A stretch of DNA of 8,131 nucleotides, taken from positions 1-8,131 of the forward strand of contig DAYL01000010.1 of assembly GCA_002508705.1 (NCBI GenBank), given 5' to 3'. This DNA is from Methanoculleus sp. UBA374 (lineage in GTDB: Archaea; Halobacteriota; Methanomicrobia; Methanomicrobiales; Methanoculleaceae). The notes beneath the pieces were generated by a model. The model was given only the letters and a program-made list of their open reading frames with translations. It searched no databases and had not been told where the DNA came from. The translations under genes and the position numbers were made by a program. Of the stretch, positions 2-7,931 are shown piece by piece; position 1 is the first letter of the stretch, and each line of letters opens with the position of its first letter.

Positions 2-199
2 TTGTGCCGTGCCATCCCCACCCCGAAGGGTGGGGTCTTCCCGCTCCACCCCCTTCACCCCCGCAAGATCAATAAAACCGGAGAAGATGGAGTTAAACTA
101 CTTGTCGTCATTCCCCGGCGCGACCCCATTCCCCGCGGGACGCTCCTCTCTATTCTGAAACAGGCCCGCCTTACAAAGGAAGAATTTCTTGATCTGTGA
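2..199 (+). pseudogene. HicA-like toxin, C-terminal remnant
   Basis: The last ~45 codons resemble the C-terminal half of HicA (YcfA-type) mRNA interferase toxins: a beta strand reading VKLLVVIP, then the helix-start pattern PRGTLLSILKQA, then LTKEEFLDL and a stop. HicA proteins are usually 60-85 residues, form a small dsRBD-like fold, cleave mRNA, and rely on a histidine in an N-terminal G-S-H motif. Here the first ~18 codons are proline- and histidine-rich, do not look like HicA, and overlap a GC hairpin. No G-S-H motif is visible in any plus frame. The only start in view is TTG at position 2, at the window edge. No HicB antitoxin follows in the next 160 bases. I read this as a decayed or 5'-truncated toxin, probably inactive. 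Family assignment is fairly confident; gene status is less so because upstream sequence is missing. Confidence 0.6.
16..35. other. Perfect 8-bp GC inverted repeat with CGAA loop
   Basis: CCCCACCC and GGGTGGGG pair perfectly around a four-base CGAA loop, giving a very stable hairpin, followed by a short pyrimidine run (TCTTCCC). It lies inside the apparently non-HicA start of the toxin remnant. It could be the transcription terminator of an upstream gene or a relic of a rearrangement. Only one copy is seen, so it is not a repeat array. Confidence 0.5.
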
Positions 200-387: not shown

Positions 388-1446
388 ATGAGTGAAATTT
401 ACATTCTGGCCTCTGTCCCCGAACAGGGAAAGACCACCACGGCGATCCTTCTCTCCCGCTACTTCGAGAAAAAGGGGAAAAAAGTTGCATGCCTGCAGTC
501 TGAAAAAGGGCTCTTTGATGTGCATACCTACCTTCAGGAAGATCGTTATCACTATTCCATCCCGCTTGAAACGGCGAAGAGCCGAAAATCCTTTGAAGAG
601 TGGCTCACGGTGGGCTATGATGTCTATATCTTCGAGGTATCCTTCCCGTATTCCCCGCCGGGGTCGGCGTTTATCGATCTCTTCGAGAACGTAAACGAAC
701 TCGTTTCCTATGATCTCAGGGACCGTTGGAAGGAGTATCGCCGCCAGCGGGTCACCGAACACTGGGAGCTGCCGTCGGATTCCAACAGTCATCTTACATT
801 TTTCTTGGACCTGTTCAACGACAGAAACGTCCGGAAGGTCTTTACCAAAACGAGGGGGAAGATTGACGCCCCCTCGGTCGATGACCGGTTCAACCTTGTC
901 AATCCCGGCGATTTTGTTTGCGACAGCATCAATCCCCGCTATTCCTTCCCGAAAAGTGGGAAAAAAGCAATAGCGGTCGGGGCGTTTCCTGCCGAGTACC
1001 GGGACATCTATGCCGATCTGAAATGGTACGGGTTCGACTATGCTGAATTTATGGAACGGTTCAGAAAGGAGGATTACGATCTCGCTATCATCGGCGCATG
1101 TATGAACCAGAACCTTAAGTTCCGTGACAGACCGGTGGAACCTGATATCATCTGCTATCAGCCGTCTGTATACCGTAGGGGGATTATCCAGGGTCATAGC
1201 GGAGTCAAGAAACACAGGCAGGTGACGGATGATCTCATGGAAGTTCACGGGACAATAAAGAACGAACCGGTCGGAACGCCTGTGGGGAAGGAAGGCGGCG
1301 TATTCGCCGGCCACAATAACAGGTACTGGATTTACAGGATGCACCCTGATTTTGATCTGATTAAAAAGGAGGGGAACATCCTCTTCTGCAACGGCTGGGT
1401 GCTCCCGCAGTACCTTATCCGCGACGGATTTCTGGAGGTGGGGTGA
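388..1446 (+). CDS. P-loop ATPase, CobQ/CobB-like (deviant Walker A), function unknown
   Basis: A 352-residue soluble protein. The N-terminus is a hydrophobic strand followed by a nucleotide-binding loop, SVPEQGKTTTA (residues 9-19). The G-K-T core is intact but the usual leading glycine of G-x-x-x-x-G-K-T is serine. Strand, loop and following helix, with a basic turn before a second strand (KKVACLQ), match the cobyrinic acid a,c-diamide synthase / dethiobiotin synthetase / MinD-like class of P-loop proteins. The rest, including a later strand DLAIIGACMNQ around residues 232-242, is not assigned to a known enzyme, and glutamine-amidotransferase residues were not recognised. ATG 388 is preferred because the fold begins right after it; an in-frame TTG at 364 would add only eight residues. 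It leads the cluster, and its stop TGA is followed at once by the next gene's ATG in the same frame, implying coupled translation. It may power or switch the membrane and Ig-domain proteins downstream, which is inference. Confidence 0.75.
   Translation: MSEIYILASVPEQGKTTTAILLSRYFEKKGKKVACLQSEKGLFDVHTYLQEDRYHYSIPLETAKSRKSFEEWLTVGYDVYIFEVSFPYSPPGSAFIDLFENVNELVSYDLRDRWKEYRRQRVTEHWELPSDSNSHLTFFLDLFNDRNVRKVFTKTRGKIDAPSVDDRFNLVNPGDFVCDSINPRYSFPKSGKKAIAVGAFPAEYRDIYADLKWYGFDYAEFMERFRKEDYDLAIIGACMNQNLKFRDRPVEPDIICYQPSVYRRGIIQGHSGVKKHRQVTDDLMEVHGTIKNEPVGTPVGKEGGVFAGHNNRYWIYRMHPDFDLIKKEGNILFCNGWVLPQYLIRDGFLEVG
1434..1440 (+). promoter_or_regulatory. Strong Shine-Dalgarno for the Ig-like repeat gene
   Basis: GGAGGTG lies six bases before the ATG at 1447, inside the last codons of the ATPase gene. 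It supports independent or coupled initiation at 1447 and fixes the start of the Ig-like protein, even though the two reading frames are the same. Confidence 0.75.
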
Positions 1447-3015
1447 ATGGGAGAAGGAGTCAGCCCGCCGGTGGTGACTCTGGTCGAACCGGAAGACCCG
1501 GACATCGGCGATCCCGTCGGGGCTGAGCGGCCGTTCACGGCATCGTGCGACCAGCCGGCCACGCTGACGGTTTACCTGGACGACAATCTGGTGCATACGA
1601 GCGCTTCCGGCGTCCGGGAAGTGTCCTATACCTTCCCGAGTGCGCCGCTGGGGCAGCATATGGTCCGGGTAGTCGCGGCGAACGCCAACGGGACGGGGGA
1701 GAATTACTGGACCTGGAACGTGGTCTCGACGCCGCCGGTAGTGATACGCGTCGCTCCGCTCGAACAGGCGATCTCCGACGATTCACCGGATGCGACGAGA
1801 GTTTTTGAGATCGCGGTGGATCAATCCGCCCGCATCATCTTCTACCACAACGGGGACGTGATTTACGACTCCGGCAGCCAGACCCTGACCTCCTGCTCGG
1901 TACCGTTTTCAGCGCACAGGTACGGCGAGCATGTCATTACCGCTGTTGCTCTGAACGCAAACGGCCGGGGGACGCTTCACTGGACGTGGACCATCAGCAG
2001 ACCTCTACCTCCCCCGGAACCTCCGGAAATAACCCTCATCTGGCCGAACACAACAACGCCCTCATCCTACGCCGGGGCACGAGTGGTATTCGCGGTTCAG
2101 GTCACCCCCCCGGCTCAGGTGAAGTTCTACCTGGATGAGGAAGAGGTGTTATCGATCGATCAATTAACGGGTTTCGCCAATTATGTCGATGATTCCGCAC
2201 TGGTTGGCCCTCATATTATCAGGATCACCGCGCACAATACCGAAGGTTCGGACCAGCTGCTAGTACATTGGACCGTCCATGAACCGGACACTCCGCCGGC
2301 CCTTTCTCTCAGTGTACCGGATACCATAAGCAACCTGCAGGGAGAGGTGAGGATTATCCTGGCACACGTAACTACCCCGTGCACGATACCGTGGTTCATC
2401 GATGGGGTGTGTGTCGCGGAAATGCGGGGCGATCCATTGACTTTTGCATATTTCGGCTACAATACTTCCAAACTAAGTGTTGGCCAGCATTCTCTAACCG
2501 TAACCGCAGGAAATCAACAGGGTTCGGATTCGAAGACTGTAACCTGGACTATCAGCGACCCGTACGATATCGTTCGCCAGGTTCATGGCGAGGATGTAGA
2601 TATCGAGGTCGGTGGCGTACTGAAGACAACTGCCACCCTTAACGAAAGAGGGGACGGATCTCGGTTTATCGAAATTGCGTACAATACAGGCATTGGCTTG
2701 GATCTTATGAAAGATCAACACACGGGAGATCTAATCCCCATTTCAGGCAACTTCGATATCGAAGTAACCGTCAGCTGGCCGATTCTCACGATACCAAATA
2801 CAGTTGTCAATTATCCAAAAACGAAGATTCATAGCGATACTCCTTCAAACCACGGCTCATTGAGCATCGAAGTACCGAATTCAAGTTATTATTATATTGA
2901 TGTAAATTTGGCTGGAACGTGCAAATTTTTCCCGAAGTTAGAGGGGGTGCCCATTCCTATCCTTGGGTTTACAAATTACAATTATCATTGCAATGTCTAT
3001 CTATCGCTGCAATAA
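1447..3015 (+). CDS. Ig-like repeat protein with four domains and a unique C-terminal domain
   Basis: A 522-residue protein with four tandem beta-sandwich repeats at about residues 6-93, 96-184, 193-278 and 283-370. Each opens with a P-P-x-I/V strand, has a Y-L-D or F-Y-H-N type hairpin in the middle, then a G-x-H motif before two strands, an A-x-N-x-x-G turn and, in most copies, a closing W-T-W or W-T-V strand. This is an Ig-like/PKD-like architecture typical of adhesion or scaffold modules. Residues 371-522 are a separate, beta-rich, Asn/Tyr/Ser-rich region of unknown family. No signal peptide or membrane segment is visible: the first repeat starts within ten residues of the Met. The 3' half is noticeably more AT-rich than the 5' half. 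It is translationally coupled to the ATPase upstream and followed 17 bases later by a membrane protein gene. Close relatives of its repeats occur at 3731-3785, 5870-6150 and 6231-6401. The partner and role are unknown. Confidence 0.8.
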   Translation: MGEGVSPPVVTLVEPEDPDIGDPVGAERPFTASCDQPATLTVYLDDNLVHTSASGVREVSYTFPSAPLGQHMVRVVAANANGTGENYWTWNVVSTPPVVIRVAPLEQAISDDSPDATRVFEIAVDQSARIIFYHNGDVIYDSGSQTLTSCSVPFSAHRYGEHVITAVALNANGRGTLHWTWTISRPLPPPEPPEITLIWPNTTTPSSYAGARVVFAVQVTPPAQVKFYLDEEEVLSIDQLTGFANYVDDSALVGPHIIRITAHNTEGSDQLLVHWTVHEPDTPPALSLSVPDTISNLQGEVRIILAHVTTPCTIPWFIDGVCVAEMRGDPLTFAYFGYNTSKLSVGQHSLTVTAGNQQGSDSKTVTWTISDPYDIVRQVHGEDVDIEVGGVLKTTATLNERGDGSRFIEIAYNTGIGLDLMKDQHTGDLIPISGNFDIEVTVSWPILTIPNTVVNYPKTKIHSDTPSNHGSLSIEVPNSSYYYIDVNLAGTCKFFPKLEGVPIPILGFTNYNYHCNVYLSLQ

Positions 3016-3023
3016 GGGAAGGA
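3016..3023 (+). promoter_or_regulatory. Shine-Dalgarno deciding the Yip1-like start
   Basis: GGGAAGGA directly follows the stop of the Ig-like gene and sits nine bases before ATG 3033. It favours this start over the in-frame ATG at 2919, which lies inside the preceding gene and would add a non-hydrophobic extension. Confidence 0.6.
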
Positions 3024-3032
3024 ACAACCAGT

Positions 3033-3677
3033 ATGAGGATGAATGAATTGCGATCGAGTTTCACCCACTCGATACCCGGCTATCTGGTGAAACCAGCAGA
3101 GATGTTCGATCTTGACAGAGACAAAGGATATTCCTTCGCAATCACATTTTTTGCGGCGATCTCGGTCACGCTTGTAGTCATTTATTATTGTTTTCTTTAC
3201 GCCGGCATCGGAGGAGGCATGTCAGTCAGTCGGCTCCTTGGGTCGATCATGAACGATATATTGTTCATATCCGGATACTTCCTCCTTCAAATACTCGTAC
3301 TGTTAACCATCATCCATTTGGCTGCAAGATACGTTAATCGAGATGCACAATTCATTCATTCTTTTACCATTACGTTTATTAGCTATACGTATATGAGCTC
3401 GCTCTTGATGGCGCCGTTCATGATAGTACAAATCGTTGACTCCTATATATTGAACGGATCTCTGCCCATACTCAAAGTAATGGACTATGTGTTAGGACCG
3501 TCTTTTATCGCCGCCATCCTCATTTTTGTCTGGGTTGCCGCAAACGGCATACAAATGCTGCACGGACCATCTACCCTGAAATCGTATGCAATCGCGATTG
3601 TTGCGATAGCCGCAGCATTCGCTGCCATCTATCTCTATGGTCTGGTGTATTTCAGCCAGTTTACTCCCTGGGGGTGA
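3033..3677 (+). CDS. Yip1-like five-helix membrane protein (first copy)
   Basis: A 214-residue integral membrane protein. A short amphipathic N-terminus (GYLVKPAEMFDLDRDKGYS) precedes five hydrophobic segments at about residues 33-59, 76-98, 108-136, 150-176 and 184-208. The 'x-x-P-x-x-x-F-D' N-terminal segment followed by five helices is the pattern of archaeal and bacterial Yip1-domain proteins, whose prokaryotic roles are largely unknown. The start is set by the Shine-Dalgarno at 3016-3023; a second ATG two codons later is also possible. The gene is AT-rich compared with its neighbours, like the end of the gene before it. A GTG-initiated Ig-like remnant overlaps its stop codon by four bases. 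It likely partners with the similarly sized protein at 3842-4483. The family call rests on topology and the N-terminal motif, not on catalytic residues. Confidence 0.7.
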   Translation: MRMNELRSSFTHSIPGYLVKPAEMFDLDRDKGYSFAITFFAAISVTLVVIYYCFLYAGIGGGMSVSRLLGSIMNDILFISGYFLLQILVLLTIIHLAARYVNRDAQFIHSFTITFISYTYMSSLLMAPFMIVQIVDSYILNGSLPILKVMDYVLGPSFIAAILIFVWVAANGIQMLHGPSTLKSYAIAIVAIAAAFAAIYLYGLVYFSQFTPWG

Positions 3678-3835
3678 ATCCGATATCCGATCGTCGCGGT
3701 GAAGCGGGTGGTGGCGAGGTTGTAATTTCTGCCGATCCTGACGTCGGCGACCCCGTCGGGGCGGATGAGTCTTACTTCACCGTGGCAGGCAAAATGAATT
3801 GGGACCCTGTCTGGGGACCCTGTCTGGAAGAGTAG
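3674..3835 (+). pseudogene. Truncated Ig-like domain remnant
   Basis: A 53-codon frame starts with GTG overlapping the TGA of the Yip1-like gene (GTGA) and ends at TAG. Its middle reads DPDVGDPVGADESYFTVA, almost the same as DPDIGDPVGAERPFTA in the first repeat of the large Ig-like protein (residues 17-32). The DNA at 3734-3767 is likewise close to 1495-1525. Homology stops after about 3785 and the frame ends within a 13-bp tandem duplication. Only the first strands of one domain remain, so a folded product is unlikely. It appears to be the 5' stub of an Ig-like gene that once stood, translationally coupled, between the two membrane protein genes. Expression as a small peptide cannot be excluded. 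Confidence 0.65.
3801..3826 (+). repeat. Perfect 13-bp tandem duplication
   Basis: Two adjacent exact copies of GGGACCCTGTCTG (3801-3813 and 3814-3826). The unit is not a multiple of three, so the duplication shifts the frame near the 3' end of the Ig-like remnant. Removing one copy does not restore Ig homology, so it probably arose after the truncation. Confidence 0.85.
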
Positions 3836-3841
3836 TACCTC

Positions 3842-4483
3842 ATGGCCTTTGTATTCATTCAAAAGGTAGTGAGAAAGACCTTCCTGCTTTTTGTATCGCC
3901 CGTACGGACTGCAGAGATCGTTCAGGACGAGAGCCTGAGAGAATCGATCCTCTACTGGCTCATCGTCGGATTTTTGGCATTCGGGATCTTCATCTCTGCT
4001 GTCTGTTGTTTACTATATCTTGATCTTGATGGAGCAAATGTGCATCAGATAGGGTTTGTTTTCCGTATGTTTGTCTCCTCCCACCTGGGATTTCTGGTAG
4101 GTTCTGCCGTACTCCCGGCGATTCTTTACGGACTGAGCAGAGCGTCGGGCACAAGCCTGGGCTGGGAAGAATCGGTAAAGATCTCCTGCACCGCCTTTCC
4201 GGCCCTTGTCATCCCGCTGTATGTGGGAGGCACTACCACACTCCTTATCACATATGCCGAGGGGTGGCTATCTCTCGAGGCCATAGGCTTTACATTGCTT
4301 TGCCTGCTGTATGGAATCATATGGTCGGGTTTCGTCGCGTCGTACCTGGTACGGAGTTACTCGAAACGGAGCATGCTCTTTTCGATCGGACTGGTCGTTC
4401 TGTCGGTTCTGATACTCTATGCTCTGAACATGGCTGTTGCACTATCAGGGTGCTTCAGGATCGTGGGGTATGGTTTATTTTGA
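3842..4483 (+). CDS. Yip1-like five-helix membrane protein (second copy)
   Basis: A 213-residue membrane protein with the same plan as the protein encoded at 3033-3677: an N-terminal segment with a phenylalanine-rich stretch and proline (FLLFVSPVRTAEIVQDE), then five hydrophobic segments at about residues 35-60, 73-98, 113-138, 146-171 and 176-201. Length, topology and the N-terminal 'F-V-x-P' motif suggest a distant paralogue, also Yip1-like, although residue identity is low. The ATG at 3842 has no clear Shine-Dalgarno, only GAAGAG 3827-3832. It follows the Ig-like remnant by six bases, which suggests the remnant's original gene and this one were once tightly linked. A small frame at 4470 overlaps its end by 14 bases. 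The function is unknown; pairing with the first copy in one membrane complex is plausible. Confidence 0.7.
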   Translation: MAFVFIQKVVRKTFLLFVSPVRTAEIVQDESLRESILYWLIVGFLAFGIFISAVCCLLYLDLDGANVHQIGFVFRMFVSSHLGFLVGSAVLPAILYGLSRASGTSLGWEESVKISCTAFPALVIPLYVGGTTTLLITYAEGWLSLEAIGFTLLCLLYGIIWSGFVASYLVRSYSKRSMLFSIGLVVLSVLILYALNMAVALSGCFRIVGYGLF

Positions 4484-4751
4484 TTCTCCTGGGGAGTACT
4501 GCCGCGAGGTCTGGCACGTGAGCCGCGACGGCAACCCACCTGTGGGAACGCCGATCGATCCCGGCGAATCGGAGGTGACGGATACGGAGGAGGCATGTAA
4601 ATGGATTCCTTGTACCCGTAGGGCTGAGTGCCGCACAGAATGCCGTCGACCTCGTGAGGGAACCCTTCCCGGTATCAGGACATCGATGGAGTCAATCGGC
4701 CGTACGGTTCAGGATCACCCGTTCAGTCGTGCTCACATGACGAAGCGGTAA
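4470..4751 (+). pseudogene. Small broken ORF, possibly PEGA-like at its start
   Basis: From ATG 4470, overlapping the previous stop, the frame reads VYFDSPGEYCREVWHVSRDG and continues with VGTPIDPGESEVTDTEEA. This vaguely resembles a PEGA-type surface beta domain (FDSP, then V-x-x-DG, then GTP, then PGE). After about residue 45 the frame turns arginine- and cysteine-rich and loses protein character. A neighbouring frame (open 4579-4740, +1 relative) then gives protein-like sequence, VPVGLSAAQNAVDLVREPFP, up to a TGA at 4738. The simplest reading is one gene of about 85-90 codons broken by a frameshift near 4600. Neither half is confidently recognised. It occupies the whole gap before the propeller gene; nothing else is visible there. 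Confidence 0.35.
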
Positions 4752-4769
4752 CAGAAGGAACGAAAACAA

Positions 4770-6209
4770 ATGGAACGAAACCACCGTATCATCGGAATCG
4801 CGCTCGTTGTTCTCGCCGCGGGGGTGGCTGTCCTCTGGGCGGGCGGCCACGTCGACTCCCTCCCGGGGAATTACTTCCTCTACGAACTTGGCGGGGAGTA
4901 CGACTGCATGTACCCTTCCATCAGCCCGGACGGGACGAAGATCGTCTATGTTGCCACGATTTACCCCGACCGGCATTCATCCAATCTCTGGATCGTGGAT
5001 ACCCGTACCTGGCATACCCGGCAGCTCACCTCCTGCGGGGACGTAGCACTTCGTCCGTACTGGAACCCGTCGGGCGACACCATTGCCTTCTTAGCCGACC
5101 GGGACATCTGGACGATCGAACGCGACGGAAACAACCTCACCCGCCTCACGGCTGACCGGTCACTCGAACTGTGCCGCGGGTGGAGCCCTGACGGGAAACG
5201 GATCGCCTACCTGTTAAACCGCTCCCTCTGGGTGATGGACACCGACGGAAGGAACACACAACTGGCCATTAACGGAACATCGGTGATATTTGATAACTTC
5301 CCAGTCTGGAGCCCGGACAGCGGGAGGATCGCCGTTTCATGCCCAGATCAAGTGACGACGACCGTCGACGGTGAGTTGATCGCGTACCAAAACCCAAATG
5401 AAGGATTACTGATCGTCGAGGTCGACGGAGGGGCGCACACCCTGCTTGAGGTCGGAGATTGCAGTCTGCCGGCATGGAGTCCCGATGGCAGCCGGATTGC
5501 ATACGCTTCCACTGACGGTATCCGGACGGTTCACCCCGACGGCAGCGGGAACCGTAAAATCATCGATGAACGCATCTTCCCCTCCGAAAGCCCAGCATGG
5601 TTGGCCTCAGGCGACAAGATCGCCTACCTCACATGGGACAAGGAGATCAAGGTGGTAAACGCTGACGGAACCGGCAGGCGGACGGTGACATCGATAGGAG
5701 ACGGCATCTCCCTCTCTATCAGCAGGGATGGAAAACGGGTCGCATACAGTACTCTCGGCACGGTACGGCTGTCACGCATGGACGGCATCGAGTGGTGTAA
5801 GCCGGTTGCTGCGGTTCTGGATATGGTGCGCCTGAAAAACCTGCATAAGAGGCCTGCGATATTCACGGACCCCCCACAGATAACGTTCGTCGAACCTGCA
5901 GAGCGCGTCGTCAACGATACAGTGGGAGAAAACCGGACGTTTACCGTTGCTTCCGATGAACCGGTCACGATGACGTTCTACTTAGATAGCGACGAACGGG
6001 TGTACCTGCGTGACGAGGGCATCCGGCAGGCGTCGTATACGTTTGAAAACGTCCCACTGGGTACGCATACGGTAACGGTGTCTGTTGTCAACGAGAGCTG
6101 GACACGCATGGGGACGACATGGCATTCATGGACGTGGCATGTGCTCCCCGAACAGCCAATCGAACCGAGCGCCGCATGGGACGAAGAGCCTGCAGACATG
6201 CCAATCTAG
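4770..6209 (+). CDS. Membrane-anchored TolB-like propeller with C-terminal Ig-like domain
   Basis: A 479-residue exported protein. Residues 6-25 form a hydrophobic signal or anchor (IIGIALVVLAAGVAVLWAG) after a basic start. Residues ~45-340 carry seven PD40/TolB-type propeller repeats of the form P-x-W-S-P-D-G-x-x-I-A-Y, starting near residues 49, 97, 137, 178, 234, 275 and 315, consistent with a complete seven-bladed propeller. Residues ~367-459 are an Ig-like domain (PPQITFVEPAE ... TMTFYLD ... PLGTHTVTV ... WHSWTWHVL) clearly related to the first repeat of the protein at 1447-3015. An acidic, proline-rich tail follows. AGAAGGAA at 4753-4760 is a fair Shine-Dalgarno nine bases before the ATG. 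Propellers of this class bind proteins or glycans; no catalytic residues are evident. It probably sits outside the membrane, tethered by its N-terminus, possibly contacting the Yip1-like or Ig-like proteins. The fold is confident; the role is inferred. Confidence 0.85.
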   Translation: MERNHRIIGIALVVLAAGVAVLWAGGHVDSLPGNYFLYELGGEYDCMYPSISPDGTKIVYVATIYPDRHSSNLWIVDTRTWHTRQLTSCGDVALRPYWNPSGDTIAFLADRDIWTIERDGNNLTRLTADRSLELCRGWSPDGKRIAYLLNRSLWVMDTDGRNTQLAINGTSVIFDNFPVWSPDSGRIAVSCPDQVTTTVDGELIAYQNPNEGLLIVEVDGGAHTLLEVGDCSLPAWSPDGSRIAYASTDGIRTVHPDGSGNRKIIDERIFPSESPAWLASGDKIAYLTWDKEIKVVNADGTGRRTVTSIGDGISLSISRDGKRVAYSTLGTVRLSRMDGIEWCKPVAAVLDMVRLKNLHKRPAIFTDPPQITFVEPAERVVNDTVGENRTFTVASDEPVTMTFYLDSDERVYLRDEGIRQASYTFENVPLGTHTVTVSVVNESWTRMGTTWHSWTWHVLPEQPIEPSAAWDEEPADMPI

Positions 6210-6230
6210 TAAGGGCGTTCGATCGAAGAA

Positions 6231-6401
6231 GCCCCCAGCTCAGGTAAATTTTCACCAGAATGAGGAGTAGGCACTATTGATTGAGCAATTAACGAGTTTT
6301 CCCAACTATGGCGATGATTCCGTACTGGTTGCGCACTGGACCTTGCATGAGCCGGATGCCACAAACAACCTGTAGAGAGAAGGGAGGGATGTCCTAGCAT
6401 C
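6231..6401 (+). pseudogene. Decayed, deleted duplicate of Ig-like repeat gene (third/fourth repeat)
   Basis: This stretch aligns with about 2107-2370 of the large Ig-like gene. Matching runs include CAATTAACG, GATGATTCCG, ACTGGTTG and CAACCTG. In translation AQVNFHQNEE-stop, EQLTSFPNYGDDSVLV, HWTLHEPDA and TNNL-stop correspond to AQVKFYLDEE, DQLTGFANYVDDSALV, HWTVHEPDT and SNLQ of the intact protein. The copy carries in-frame TAG stops and two internal deletions of roughly 58 and 35 bases (the A-x-N-x-x-G region and the linker to repeat four). It ends where glutamyl-tRNA synthetase homology begins. It has no start and is surely non-coding now. It shows that part of the Ig-like gene was duplicated some 4 kb downstream, or that a second such gene existed here. 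Confidence 0.8.
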
Positions 6402-6626
6402 TCATTCGAGGACTCCCGGCGCGAGAAGGCGCCGATCATCCAGTGGCTGCCGGCGGACGCGAAACTCCCCTGCACCCTCCTCCGGCAGGAGGGGAGCCTC
6501 GAAGGGTTCTGCGAACCCCTGGTCGCCGGTGAGGTGGACAACGTCGTCCAGTTCGAGCGGGTCGGGTTTGCCCGGATCGATTCGGCGGACGGCGGCCGGG
6601 TGAGCGCGTATTTTGCGCACCGGTAG
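6402..6626 (+). pseudogene. gltX: Glutamyl-tRNA synthetase, C-terminal remnant
   Basis: The frame encodes about 75 residues that match the end of archaeal-type glutamyl-tRNA synthetases: KAPIIQWLPAD, a variable insert, then EPLVAGEVDNVVQFERVGFA, R-I-D-S and a final A-Y-F-A-H-R before TAG. In the full enzyme (about 560-570 residues), which charges tRNA-Glu, this is the last part of the beta-barrel anticodon-binding region. The catalytic Rossmann domain with its HIGH and KMSKS-type motifs is absent. There is no start codon in frame; the open frame begins after TGA 6348-6350, inside the decayed Ig-like copy. Codon use is strongly GC-rich and the reading frame is clean, so the fragment is young or a conserved 3' end. 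The functional gene must be elsewhere in the genome. Recognition of the family is confident. Confidence 0.85.
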
Positions 6627-6635
6627 GACAATTCA

Positions 6636-6644
6636 TCTTTTTTC
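6636..6644 (+). terminator. T-run terminator after gltX remnant
   Basis: Six consecutive T residues (6638-6643) within TCTTTTTTC, ten bases after the gltX stop. Oligo-T is the typical archaeal termination signal. It is likely the original gltX terminator carried along with the fragment, and it now lies between convergent genes. Confidence 0.5.
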
Positions 6645-6677
6645 GGGAGAGGGAAGCCGGTGTGCCGGTCCGGAACG

Positions 6678-7931
6678 CTACGGCCGCGCGACGCCCCCAC
6701 CTTCGCGTGAGAACTCTGTGTGATCTCCCTCACCCATCTTCTCGATTTCAGACCCGAGATGCCGACAGTCATACGATAACGCGCCGGCGGCTGCGGGTTT
6801 GCCCGGGGATAGATCCGTTCGCAGCACAACGTGCAGGAACCCCGGCAGCGGATCGGCGGACCGACAGCAACCGGCATACAAGAAATCCCCCCTCACCTCG
6901 ATTGAGCGGCGAAACTGAGGATCGGCACGGAGATCCTGCCGCGCAATCGTTCGTTCGCACGACTGCAGGTGCGACCTTGCCGGAATGTCCCGGCGGATAT
7001 CGATCTCCACCCTCGCCTCGATGTCGCGGAAGACCAGAGAGACACACTCGTGGTTCAGGAGATCGGGATATTTCAACAGAACGCCGAATTCGTAGAGACT
7101 CCGGGCGCCGTCGGGACCGGTGGAGAGAGTATTGCAATGCGACCGTTCCACAATCAAATCCAGAAACTCAGGATTGTCGAGAGCATACTCCAGGGAGAAG
7201 AGGTACCTTTCGCCGGGGACAAGGCGGTTCAGCTTGATCTTATATGCACTGTCGGCCGTTACAACCGCTTCGGGCACCGGAACCAGTTTCGGCAGCCGGG
7301 CGATGGCGACCCGTGACGGGACGACATGCATATATTTCACCGTTTTGGGAAGGAGATACGTCTTTTTGGGTATCAGGACCATGTCGTATCGCTGTACTCG
7401 CTCGCTGCAGGAGATCGTCATCTGCCGACCTTCGATCCTGAACTCCTCCTGCAATTCGGCATCGATAACACCCATGGTGCGGTAGATACGCTCTATTGCG
7501 GCAGAGACCAGGTCCCGTTCGTTATGAACCCGGGCACCCCCGGTTACGGACGGGGCCGAACCGGGGGAATCGCCGGCGGGACGATGGCCGTGTACCGGCG
7601 AGCCGATCAGGTTCATCCGTTTTGTACGCACCTCGCTGAGGCCGTTTTCATCCTCAAGGACATATGTCAACTGCACGGTCTCCGATGCGGCATCCAGCAC
7701 CGGGGTTTTGAACACCACGCCCAGGTATCCGTTCACCCCAAACCGCGAAAACATCAGTTCGTCCTCCCCGGCACCCGGCTCCCGCACCGCATTGAAGATC
7801 TCCTCAACGGCAAAACACTCCGGTTTCGTGATCCGGACGATAACCTCCCGATCTTCCGGCCAGAGAACGTATGTGGCTATCCTGCCGCCCGGAAGACAGG
7901 AGGAGGGGACAAAGAGGTTTCTTACCAGCAT
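6678..7931 (-). CDS. Uncharacterised protein, probably beta-rich
   Basis: A 417-residue protein read leftward. It has no signal peptide or membrane helix. Residues ~1-108 are beta-rich with a compact domain (RIATYVLWPE, GYLGVVFKTPV, VQLTYVLEDENG). Residues ~112-140 are a Gly/Pro/His-rich linker. Residues ~141-325 form a second alternating hydrophobic/charged region (YDMVLIPKKTYLLPKTVKY, RYLFSLEYALDNPEFLDLIV, EFGVLLKYPDLLN). Beyond ~325 the sequence is arginine- and glycine-rich and less convincing; the other two minus frames offer no better continuation, so the end at 6678 is uncertain and a frameshift is possible. The start ATG is preceded directly by an in-frame TGA, which fixes the limit; GGGGGA five bases upstream may serve as ribosome site. 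No known family was recognised. It is convergent with the Ig-like cluster and gltX remnant and probably independent of them. Confidence 0.65.
   Translation of the reverse strand: MLVRNLFVPSSCLPGGRIATYVLWPEDREVIVRITKPECFAVEEIFNAVREPGAGEDELMFSRFGVNGYLGVVFKTPVLDAASETVQLTYVLEDENGLSEVRTKRMNLIGSPVHGHRPAGDSPGSAPSVTGGARVHNERDLVSAAIERIYRTMGVIDAELQEEFRIEGRQMTISCSERVQRYDMVLIPKKTYLLPKTVKYMHVVPSRVAIARLPKLVPVPEAVVTADSAYKIKLNRLVPGERYLFSLEYALDNPEFLDLIVERSHCNTLSTGPDGARSLYEFGVLLKYPDLLNHECVSLVFRDIEARVEIDIRRDIPARSHLQSCERTIARQDLRADPQFRRSIEVRGDFLYAGCCRSADPLPGFLHVVLRTDLSPGKPAAAGALSYDCRHLGSEIEKMGEGDHTEFSREGGGVARP

Follow-up and report, generated by a model that had tools for sequence, protein, structure and literature searches.

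VARTIG, the variable Thermococcales immunoglobulin-like (Ig) module, is a hypervariable archaeal locus for which three kinds of search gave no close counterpart in other archaea, according to its description, where recombining PKD loci are also noted in methanogens (PMC8416519). Its large Ig protein family, arCOG07710, is reported from Thermococcales only and carries a signal peptide in 19 of 30 cases (PMC8416519); antagonism or self/non-self recognition has been proposed both for VARTIG and for polymorphic toxin systems. Here, a locus from Methanoculleus sp. UBA374 is compared with these systems. It is contained in a stretch of 8,131 nt (contig DAYL01000010.1), called the window in the following, in which a constant nucleoside triphosphatase (NTPase) gene is followed directly by the gene for a protein starting with Met-Gly. 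The interpretation towards which we lean, with confidence a little above an even balance, is a two-gene cassette, in which the NTPase accompanies a Met-Gly protein whose unrelated tails are apparently exchanged, the predicted place of action of the tail being outside the cell, together with a partner encoded by a neighbouring gene.

Relatives were collected from 35 genomes of the genus, 232 of the order Methanomicrobiales and 392 sampled from the phylum, with one genome per species. Loci (L numbers) and genomes (G numbers) are named below only where needed; genes at the loci were called by simple picking of open reading frames (ORFs), and some were missed. In the window, the NTPase gene, head of the cassette, occupies 388..1446 on the forward strand, and the Met-Gly gene follows at 1447..3015 on the same strand, with a spacing of 0 nt. 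The latter encodes a short leader, four Ig-like modules recognised by the module profile, and a tail (2563..3012, forward strand) assigned to type C by an iterative tail profile. The arrangement recurs at all of the 18 loci examined, where the ATG of the second gene lies 0-3 nt past the NTPase stop; 16 of the products start with Met-Gly and 2 with Met-Cys-Gly. A ribosome-binding-site-like GGAGGTG of the Met-Gly gene lies inside the end of the NTPase gene (window 1429-1446), where ctggaggtg encodes the conserved C-terminal Leu-Glu-Val; its position within the last NTPase codons may reflect coupled translation of the two genes.

The number of Ig modules per Met-Gly protein ranges between 0 and 4. 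In 9 of the 29 proteins at the loci, the profile search detected none (the starts of L073b and L087 are doubtful), and several of the module-less proteins have a Trp-rich leader, for example MGWSDWGDW. When 19 Met-Gly proteins (families F2 and F3) were inspected for an N-terminal signal segment, by hydropathy only, none was clear, L076 being borderline. Long open frames at L003 (977) and in G088 (895) had raised the idea of an NTPase-Ig fusion made by stop-codon read-through, which is excluded as a rule by spacings of 1-2 nt and by TAA or TAG stops elsewhere. A natural head-tail chimera is present at L027, where the frame at 8684-10096 runs from the NTPase, up to about profile residue 285, into tail A without its first part; P0032 resembles it, by an NTPase start and a tail-A match.

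The NTPase is about 350 residues long. In its model, residues 1-175 contain a P-loop and a predicted SIMIBI-class fold, and it is in this fold that it resembles the NTPases of that class, SRP54/FtsY (SRP, signal recognition particle), ParA and GPN-loop; its C-terminal half (176-352) is not accounted for by the matches to any of them. No solved relative was found by sequence at E<0.1, SRP54 giving a chance-level match (E 0.15), and Pfam returned a weak match to CbiA. The possibility of a cobalamin-type amidase was set aside: the presence of CobN-like chelatase genes (F7) is possibly a neighbour effect, because F7 is missing from the fetched stretch of further loci that have this pair. Such genes lie near L025, L026, L027, L029, L073, L076, L082 and L084 (8 of 24 loci), and also near L109 and L111; one F7 member was confirmed by Pfam, and some of these loci also have binding-protein and ABC transporter genes. 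For the nine proteins submitted, PADLOC gave no match below E 0.01; with PHROGs, nine proteins gave Ig-type matches only, to the Ig and propeller proteins of the window.

The tails following this constant head fall into at least five unrelated groups. Iterative profiles collected 30 rows for type A (28 without L026 and L113, which were presumably pulled in via a shared leader and are not counted as A), 11 for B, 11 for C, including the window, 5 for D and 2 for E, while the tails of L081, L084 and L110 could not be grouped. These counts are rows and not events, several rows being copies of one gene, as P0003 and L023b. The tail of the window groups with those of L001, L026, L074, L107, L109, L111, L112 and three P proteins. 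Tail types were mapped on an NTPase tree of 24 rows, which omits the chimeric or broken L027, L086, L087 and L113, and keeps L074, L084, L108 and L112 as partial sequences. They show no overall signal on the tree: 14 changes are required, compared with a mean of 14.3 after shuffling (104 of 200 shuffles are as low), and no tail group of two or more rows forms one side of a branch. Nine NTPase pairs are at least 67% identical, and in five of them the tails are unrelated. For these five, continuous DNA homology ends sharply past the NTPase stop, at +144 nt for L024/L077 (NTPases 96% identical), +36 nt for L073/L074 (91%), +275 nt for L001/L023 (88%), +43 nt for L026/L085 (75%) and +604 nt for L078/L079 (72%), L078 and L079 being loci of a single genome. 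Breaks of this kind, located after the NTPase, match the pattern that would be expected of exchange through a shared head.

Tail A is paired with one membrane-anchored family, F4. An F4 gene, whose product is built of one N-terminal hydrophobic segment and about 150 further residues, is the next gene at 7 of 9 tail-A loci (one of these, the first F4 of L082, was assigned by eye and not linked by BLAST, and is included among the rows of the F4 profile) and at none of 15 other loci. When the whole order was searched, 15 of 18 places with tail A had F4 no more than 250 nt downstream; in 2 of the 15 the A half and F4 share one reading frame, and neither module-only matches nor the truncated third copy of G159 enter the count. 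Genomes lacking a strong NTPase match contribute seven of the 18 places, and the A-F4 pair is found at six of these. At L114 and L116, a protein with an N-terminal hydrophobic segment has the second half of A fused to F4, and at L115 another N-terminally hydrophobic protein carries the full A behind Kelch and PKD domains; the two fusions and the hydrophobic N-termini argue for an encounter between A and F4, and for an action of A on the outer side of the cell.

After most of the other tails, the next gene encodes a PD40 propeller (F1), which is the commonest case, or a Yip1-like protein. The Yip1-like gene F10 comes next after the type-C tail both in the window (3033..3677, forward strand) and at L074; with the ORF taken from 2919, the window protein scores 26.0 bits against Pfam Yip1, the cut-off being 28.6. 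This cut-off is passed by the Yip1-like proteins of L001 and L023, and by neither window protein. The initial annotation had placed the ATPase and two Yip1-like proteins in a possible membrane-associated system, and had taken the repeated modules to bind a shared partner. The NTPase is indeed linked to the module; the Yip1-like proteins, in contrast, are no constant part of the locus, as the first one has relatives in 5 of 232 genomes, with only 2 of their 7 matches at an NTPase locus. The shared partner is not supported, because the modules are optional and the neighbouring gene tracks the tail type, not the presence of modules.

Within tail A, an alignment of 23 rows leaves only C134, N137, L155 and H196 invariant, with Q217 nearly so (Asn in a relative). 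In the predicted structure (pLDDT 90.4), C134 is placed at the start of a helix, with H196 and Q217 on the strands that follow, an order that may be read as resembling a papain-like hydrolase. PDB sequence matches touching tail A were at chance level only, and the matches found by structure comparison of the tail-A-bearing protein covered only its Ig part.

Module and NTPase are both rare and go together. By using a profile of 17 copies, the module was found in 3 of the 35 genus genomes and in 13 of the 232 order genomes. Strong NTPase matches (E<1e-20) occur in 17 of the 232; in 11 further genomes the only matches are to the NTPase N-terminus, with E of 3e-4 to 1e-3, in frames of 443-489 aa. 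The NTPase is present in 11 of the 13 module genomes (Fisher p 4e-13, relatedness being ignored; several of the lists entering Fisher tests were compiled by hand), and in these 11 the distance between the modules and an NTPase gene or remnant stays within about 9 kb. The two others have weak module matches (G062, E 8e-4; G067, E 3e-6). Conversely, the profile finds no module in 6 of the 17 NTPase genomes, where the fetched pairs have a module-less or damaged partner. In the phylum sample, 14 of 392 genomes matched the NTPase profile, five of them outside the 232 (G276, G406, G408, G453 and G457); the NTPase-Met-Gly pair is found beyond the order at L107-L111, and is damaged at L112 and L113. 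A profile search had been proposed earlier, by which the domain might have turned out widespread and independent of its neighbours; it was run, and the domain is instead rare and linked to the NTPase.

The four tandem modules of the window (1465..1731, E 4.5e-42; 1732..2004, E 3.5e-30; 2020..2286, E 1.2e-29; 2293..2562, E 7.1e-25) and a fifth at 5871..6152 (E 9.6e-30), all on the forward strand, were detected with a profile built with these copies themselves, which has to be considered in reading their E-values (7e-25 to 5e-42). Their likeness was also evaluated independently of the profile: all 10 pairs among the five score better than 1000 of 1000 residue shuffles, with z from 7.1 to 37.9. 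The repetition reported in the initial annotation, four tandem copies and a fifth on the C-end of a propeller protein, was recovered by both tests, while the motifs listed there hold in part only, since they are not in every copy (module 4 has no D-P-V-G). Each module is predicted to form an Ig-like beta-sandwich, resembling Ig-like/PKD domains; Foldseek, run on the module-bearing model, lists 1l0q among its low-ranking matches. Named homologues of the Ig protein come from Methanoculleus.

Module 5 ends a PD40 beta-propeller protein (4770..6209, forward strand; Pfam PD40 E 6e-20), at whose N-terminus hydropathy shows a hydrophobic segment, and is common to the propellers of L023 and L073, which identifies the joining as an apparently older fusion and not as recent shuffling. 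The active domain shuffling claimed earlier for the locus is supported as exchange inside the family, and not for this copy.

Three relics, all on the forward strand, accompany the intact genes. The one between the two membrane protein genes (3674..3835) had been taken for a 5' stub. It does contain a module start, of 14-18 residues (best E 4e-4), which runs directly into a paralogue C-end, the last 24 residues of a type-D protein like P0004 (22 of 24 identical, tblastn E 1.3e-11); it thus carries a 3' end as well, and appears to be a gene cut down to its two ends. A second relic, not mentioned before (4512..4714), has a module start at 4512-4583 (tblastn to the L073 protein, E 1e-3) and, at 4609-4714, the C-end of a type-D paralogue in two frames (68% and 71% identity, E 3e-6), directly before the propeller gene. 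The decayed copy described near gltX is real (6232..6399), although only a 3' fragment of gltX is found there; with DNA matches of 79% over 100 nt (E 8e-19) and 77% over 48 nt (E 4e-4), it derives from modules 3 and 4, either those of the Ig protein in the window or those of a close paralogue. The three look like former Ig genes, the first two having kept both type-D ends with the middle deleted, so that four Ig genes were probably present at the locus in the past.

Extra truncated copies are also found downstream of the cassette at other loci. L082 has two additional Met-Gly genes, behind NTPase residues 316-349 and 233-349 only (the frame of the second copy later breaks), L073 has one behind residues 80-348, and at L083 residues 323-348 precede a decayed copy. 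At L024, a small gene located about 3.2 kb downstream matches the L077 module with 84% identity over 243 nt. An NTPase 3' end suspected ahead of the second Met-Gly gene of L023 turned out, on inspection, to be a ribosome-binding-site-like match only. Truncated copies and deletion relics, three of the latter in the window, together indicate turnover.

The distal edge of the window is formed by a 3' fragment of gltX (6372..6626, forward strand; positions 527-600 of 600, profile E 8.8e-41; NCBIfam PRK04156, E 3e-18), apparently a mark of duplication or rearrangement. At L023, the gltX C-end continues in frame from a module start, and an NTPase start follows about 290 nt later; because this equals the spacing at the intact gltX-NTPase junction of the same locus, the arrangement fits tandem duplication. 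For the gltX 3' pieces of the window and L023, tandem duplication would fit as well as integration into gltX. Beyond the fragment, a 417-aa ORF lies on the reverse strand (6678-7931), without Pfam or NCBIfam matches, the two together spanning 6372-7931. In G005:C32, near 38222-38415 (L028), a 47-residue remnant of this ORF (71% identity) follows an intact gltX after about 60 nt, for which reason gltX beside the ORF may be the older order. L023, L024 and L029 share a distal boundary, in which a 31-residue NTPase start is found together with a Yip1-like gene and a 98-aa gene that weakly matches zinc ribbons. The window also contains a second membrane protein gene, predicted to be polytopic (family F25; 3842..4483, forward strand; no Pfam match at E<=1), and, just upstream of the NTPase gene, the 3' end of a HicA-like toxin gene (2-199, forward strand), whose Pfam HicA score of 22.5 bits is below the cut-off of 27.

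The two-gene cassette may be pictured as follows. Recombination through the head would swap the tail and whatever follows it. The NTPase, with its SRP/ParA-like fold, would target or power the export of the signal-less Met-Gly protein, in which the modules would form a stem spacing the tail. The product of the next gene would be a partner, inhibitor or anchor of the tail: F4 for A, a PD40 propeller or a Yip1-like protein for most others. The likeliest use, by analogy with the described systems, would be cell-cell contact, antagonism or self/non-self recognition.

Several observations weigh against this explanation. Without a signal peptide, export would need an unproven route; SRP, GPN and ParA folds give near-equal scores against the NTPase model, and a fold is not a function. 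The pairing with F4 is limited to tail A, the His half of which occurs also without the Cys half, and no known toxin or delivery domain was found by Pfam in the window protein or in ten further Met-Gly proteins. As to exchange, tail C, taken by itself, shows weak clustering on the NTPase tree (5 changes, 42 of 500 shuffles as low), the remaining four of the nine close pairs have tail C in common, all within one four-locus clade, and short patches of homology reappear after the break in L073/L074 (72-74%) and L026/L085 (69%). Finally, it is the 5' end that is kept by the NTPase remnants of seven loci (L023, L024, L028, L029, L078, L086 and L087); given these, many copies may result from plain duplication and decay.

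Duplication and decay are central to a rather unlikely alternative, in which an ordinary surface or adhesion family of Ig repeats duplicates, recombines and decays beside an unrelated housekeeping NTPase, with no dedicated system. Archaeal surface proteins often contain Ig/PKD and PD40 domains, recombining PKD loci are noted in methanogens (PMC8416519), duplication and deletion relics are abundant, and the gltX fragments fit tandem duplication. Such a family would hardly explain a pair kept at 0-3 nt at 18 of 18 loci and found beyond the order, even without an Ig module, nor a product without an ordinary signal peptide by hydropathy. Somewhat more credible, and still tentative, is a polymorphic toxin-immunity system, which would be a special case of the cassette: tail A would be a papain/NlpC-like cysteine hydrolase delivered to neighbours, F4 an outward-facing, membrane-anchored immunity protein, and the other tails would be other toxins. 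The four invariant residues, the model placement of C134, H196 and Q217, the latter replaced by Asn in a relative, and the pairing of A with F4, seen at 15 of 18 places, of which six belong to genomes that lack strong NTPase matches, speak for it. On the other side, the PDB sequence matches are at chance level and the toxicity of tail A is putative, the His half is fused to F4 in the absence of the Cys half, and no catalytic pattern was recognised in tails B-E.

The Trp-rich leaders bring in an explanation that we regard as improbable, namely that the NTPase and, at some loci, a radical SAM enzyme modify an N-terminal Trp-x-Asp/Asn/Glu leader, in the manner of a protein-borne ribosomal peptide product. 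By hand-compiled lists, the radical SAM gene F20 (two members matched by Pfam, with E 1.2e-18 and 1.5e-18) is near the NTPase in 5 of 8 Trp-leader loci, namely L025, L026, L081, L110 and L113, versus 0 of 17 others. Three-residue cyclophane enzymes link Trp to residue i+2, including Asn or Asp (PMC11002830), and the motif would suit such cross-linking. However, both enzyme and motif are absent from the window and from the other listed Ig-start loci, and at 3 of the 8 Trp-leader loci the fetched stretch does not contain F20. A mobile element or provirus spreading the pair could account for its patchy occurrence (17 of 232 genomes), its varied neighbourhoods and the presence of two loci in some genomes; this is very improbable, as the NTPase was unmatched in 50,697 phage and 72,556 plasmid records, two scans of viral contigs contained no NTPase relative, and PHROGs gave it no significant match, no search being aimed at integrases. 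A phage or plasmid origin of the NTPase was rejected on these grounds. A bolder version of the cassette, which we hold to be doubtful, combines several of these elements: a dedicated SRP-like NTPase would export a signal-less archaeal protein, translated in step with it and having an Ig stem and swappable effector tails, and the radical SAM enzyme would cross-link the Trp-x-Asp/Asn/Glu leader where the stem is missing. If true, proteins would leave the cell by a route not described so far, and a recognition or weapon system of the VARTIG type would be seen for the first time outside Thermococcales.

Returning to the cassette itself, the locus would be a newly recognised variable system, likely with a use in cell contact, to which tail exchange, export, partner roles and, possibly, toxicity would belong. 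The initial interpretation as a whole is partly supported: the family is rare, linked and exchanging, the shared partner is unsupported, and the Yip1-like proteins are not constant members. The locus is notable because the search of other archaea made by the VARTIG authors gave no close counterpart (PMC8416519). If tail swapping is true of an Ig locus in methanogens, hypervariable systems arose, or spread, more widely in archaea. The locus would offer a tractable handle on the ways in which archaea distinguish between neighbours or attack them; it also raises the question of a dedicated NTPase replacing the signal peptide for the exit of an archaeal protein.

Several known systems invite comparison. 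The protein 1l0q, which we take to be an archaeal surface-layer protein with beta-propeller and PKD domains, presumably has a YVTN propeller and no described NTPase/Met-Gly pair. Archaeal surface-layer proteins resemble the window protein at 4770-6209 in joining a propeller to an Ig-like domain, and differ in that the propeller is here of the PD40 and not of the YVTN kind. In the part of the open-licence literature on Methanoculleus and Methanomicrobiales that was available, no description of the NTPase-Met-Gly pair was found.

With polymorphic toxin systems, such as contact-dependent inhibition (CDI), Rhs and the archaeal polymorphic toxin systems (PTS), the cassette shares a constant head with unrelated C-terminal domains, an adjoining partner gene and extra truncated downstream copies (two at L082, one at L073 and a decayed one at L083), as judged from the general features described (PMC8416519). 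It differs in having no known toxin or delivery domain, and in a head made of an NTPase and a short Met-Gly leader. The layout is like that of these systems, a likeness which does not in itself establish membership.

VARTIG, as described (PMC8416519), is likewise a patchy, hypervariable locus of Ig proteins with a changing C-end and smaller related copies downstream, and it too resembles polymorphic toxin loci. Its membrane proteins track the subfamily of the Ig protein, as is the case here for tail A with F4 only. In VARTIG, however, the large Ig protein is first in the array, whereas here the NTPase comes first and the Met-Gly protein second; the latter has no recognisable signal peptide, by hydropathy only, it may do without Ig modules, and what varies is a whole tail, replaced by unrelated ones, where VARTIG varies a single Ig domain. 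Although the two are likened by description only, VARTIG is the closest description found for this locus.

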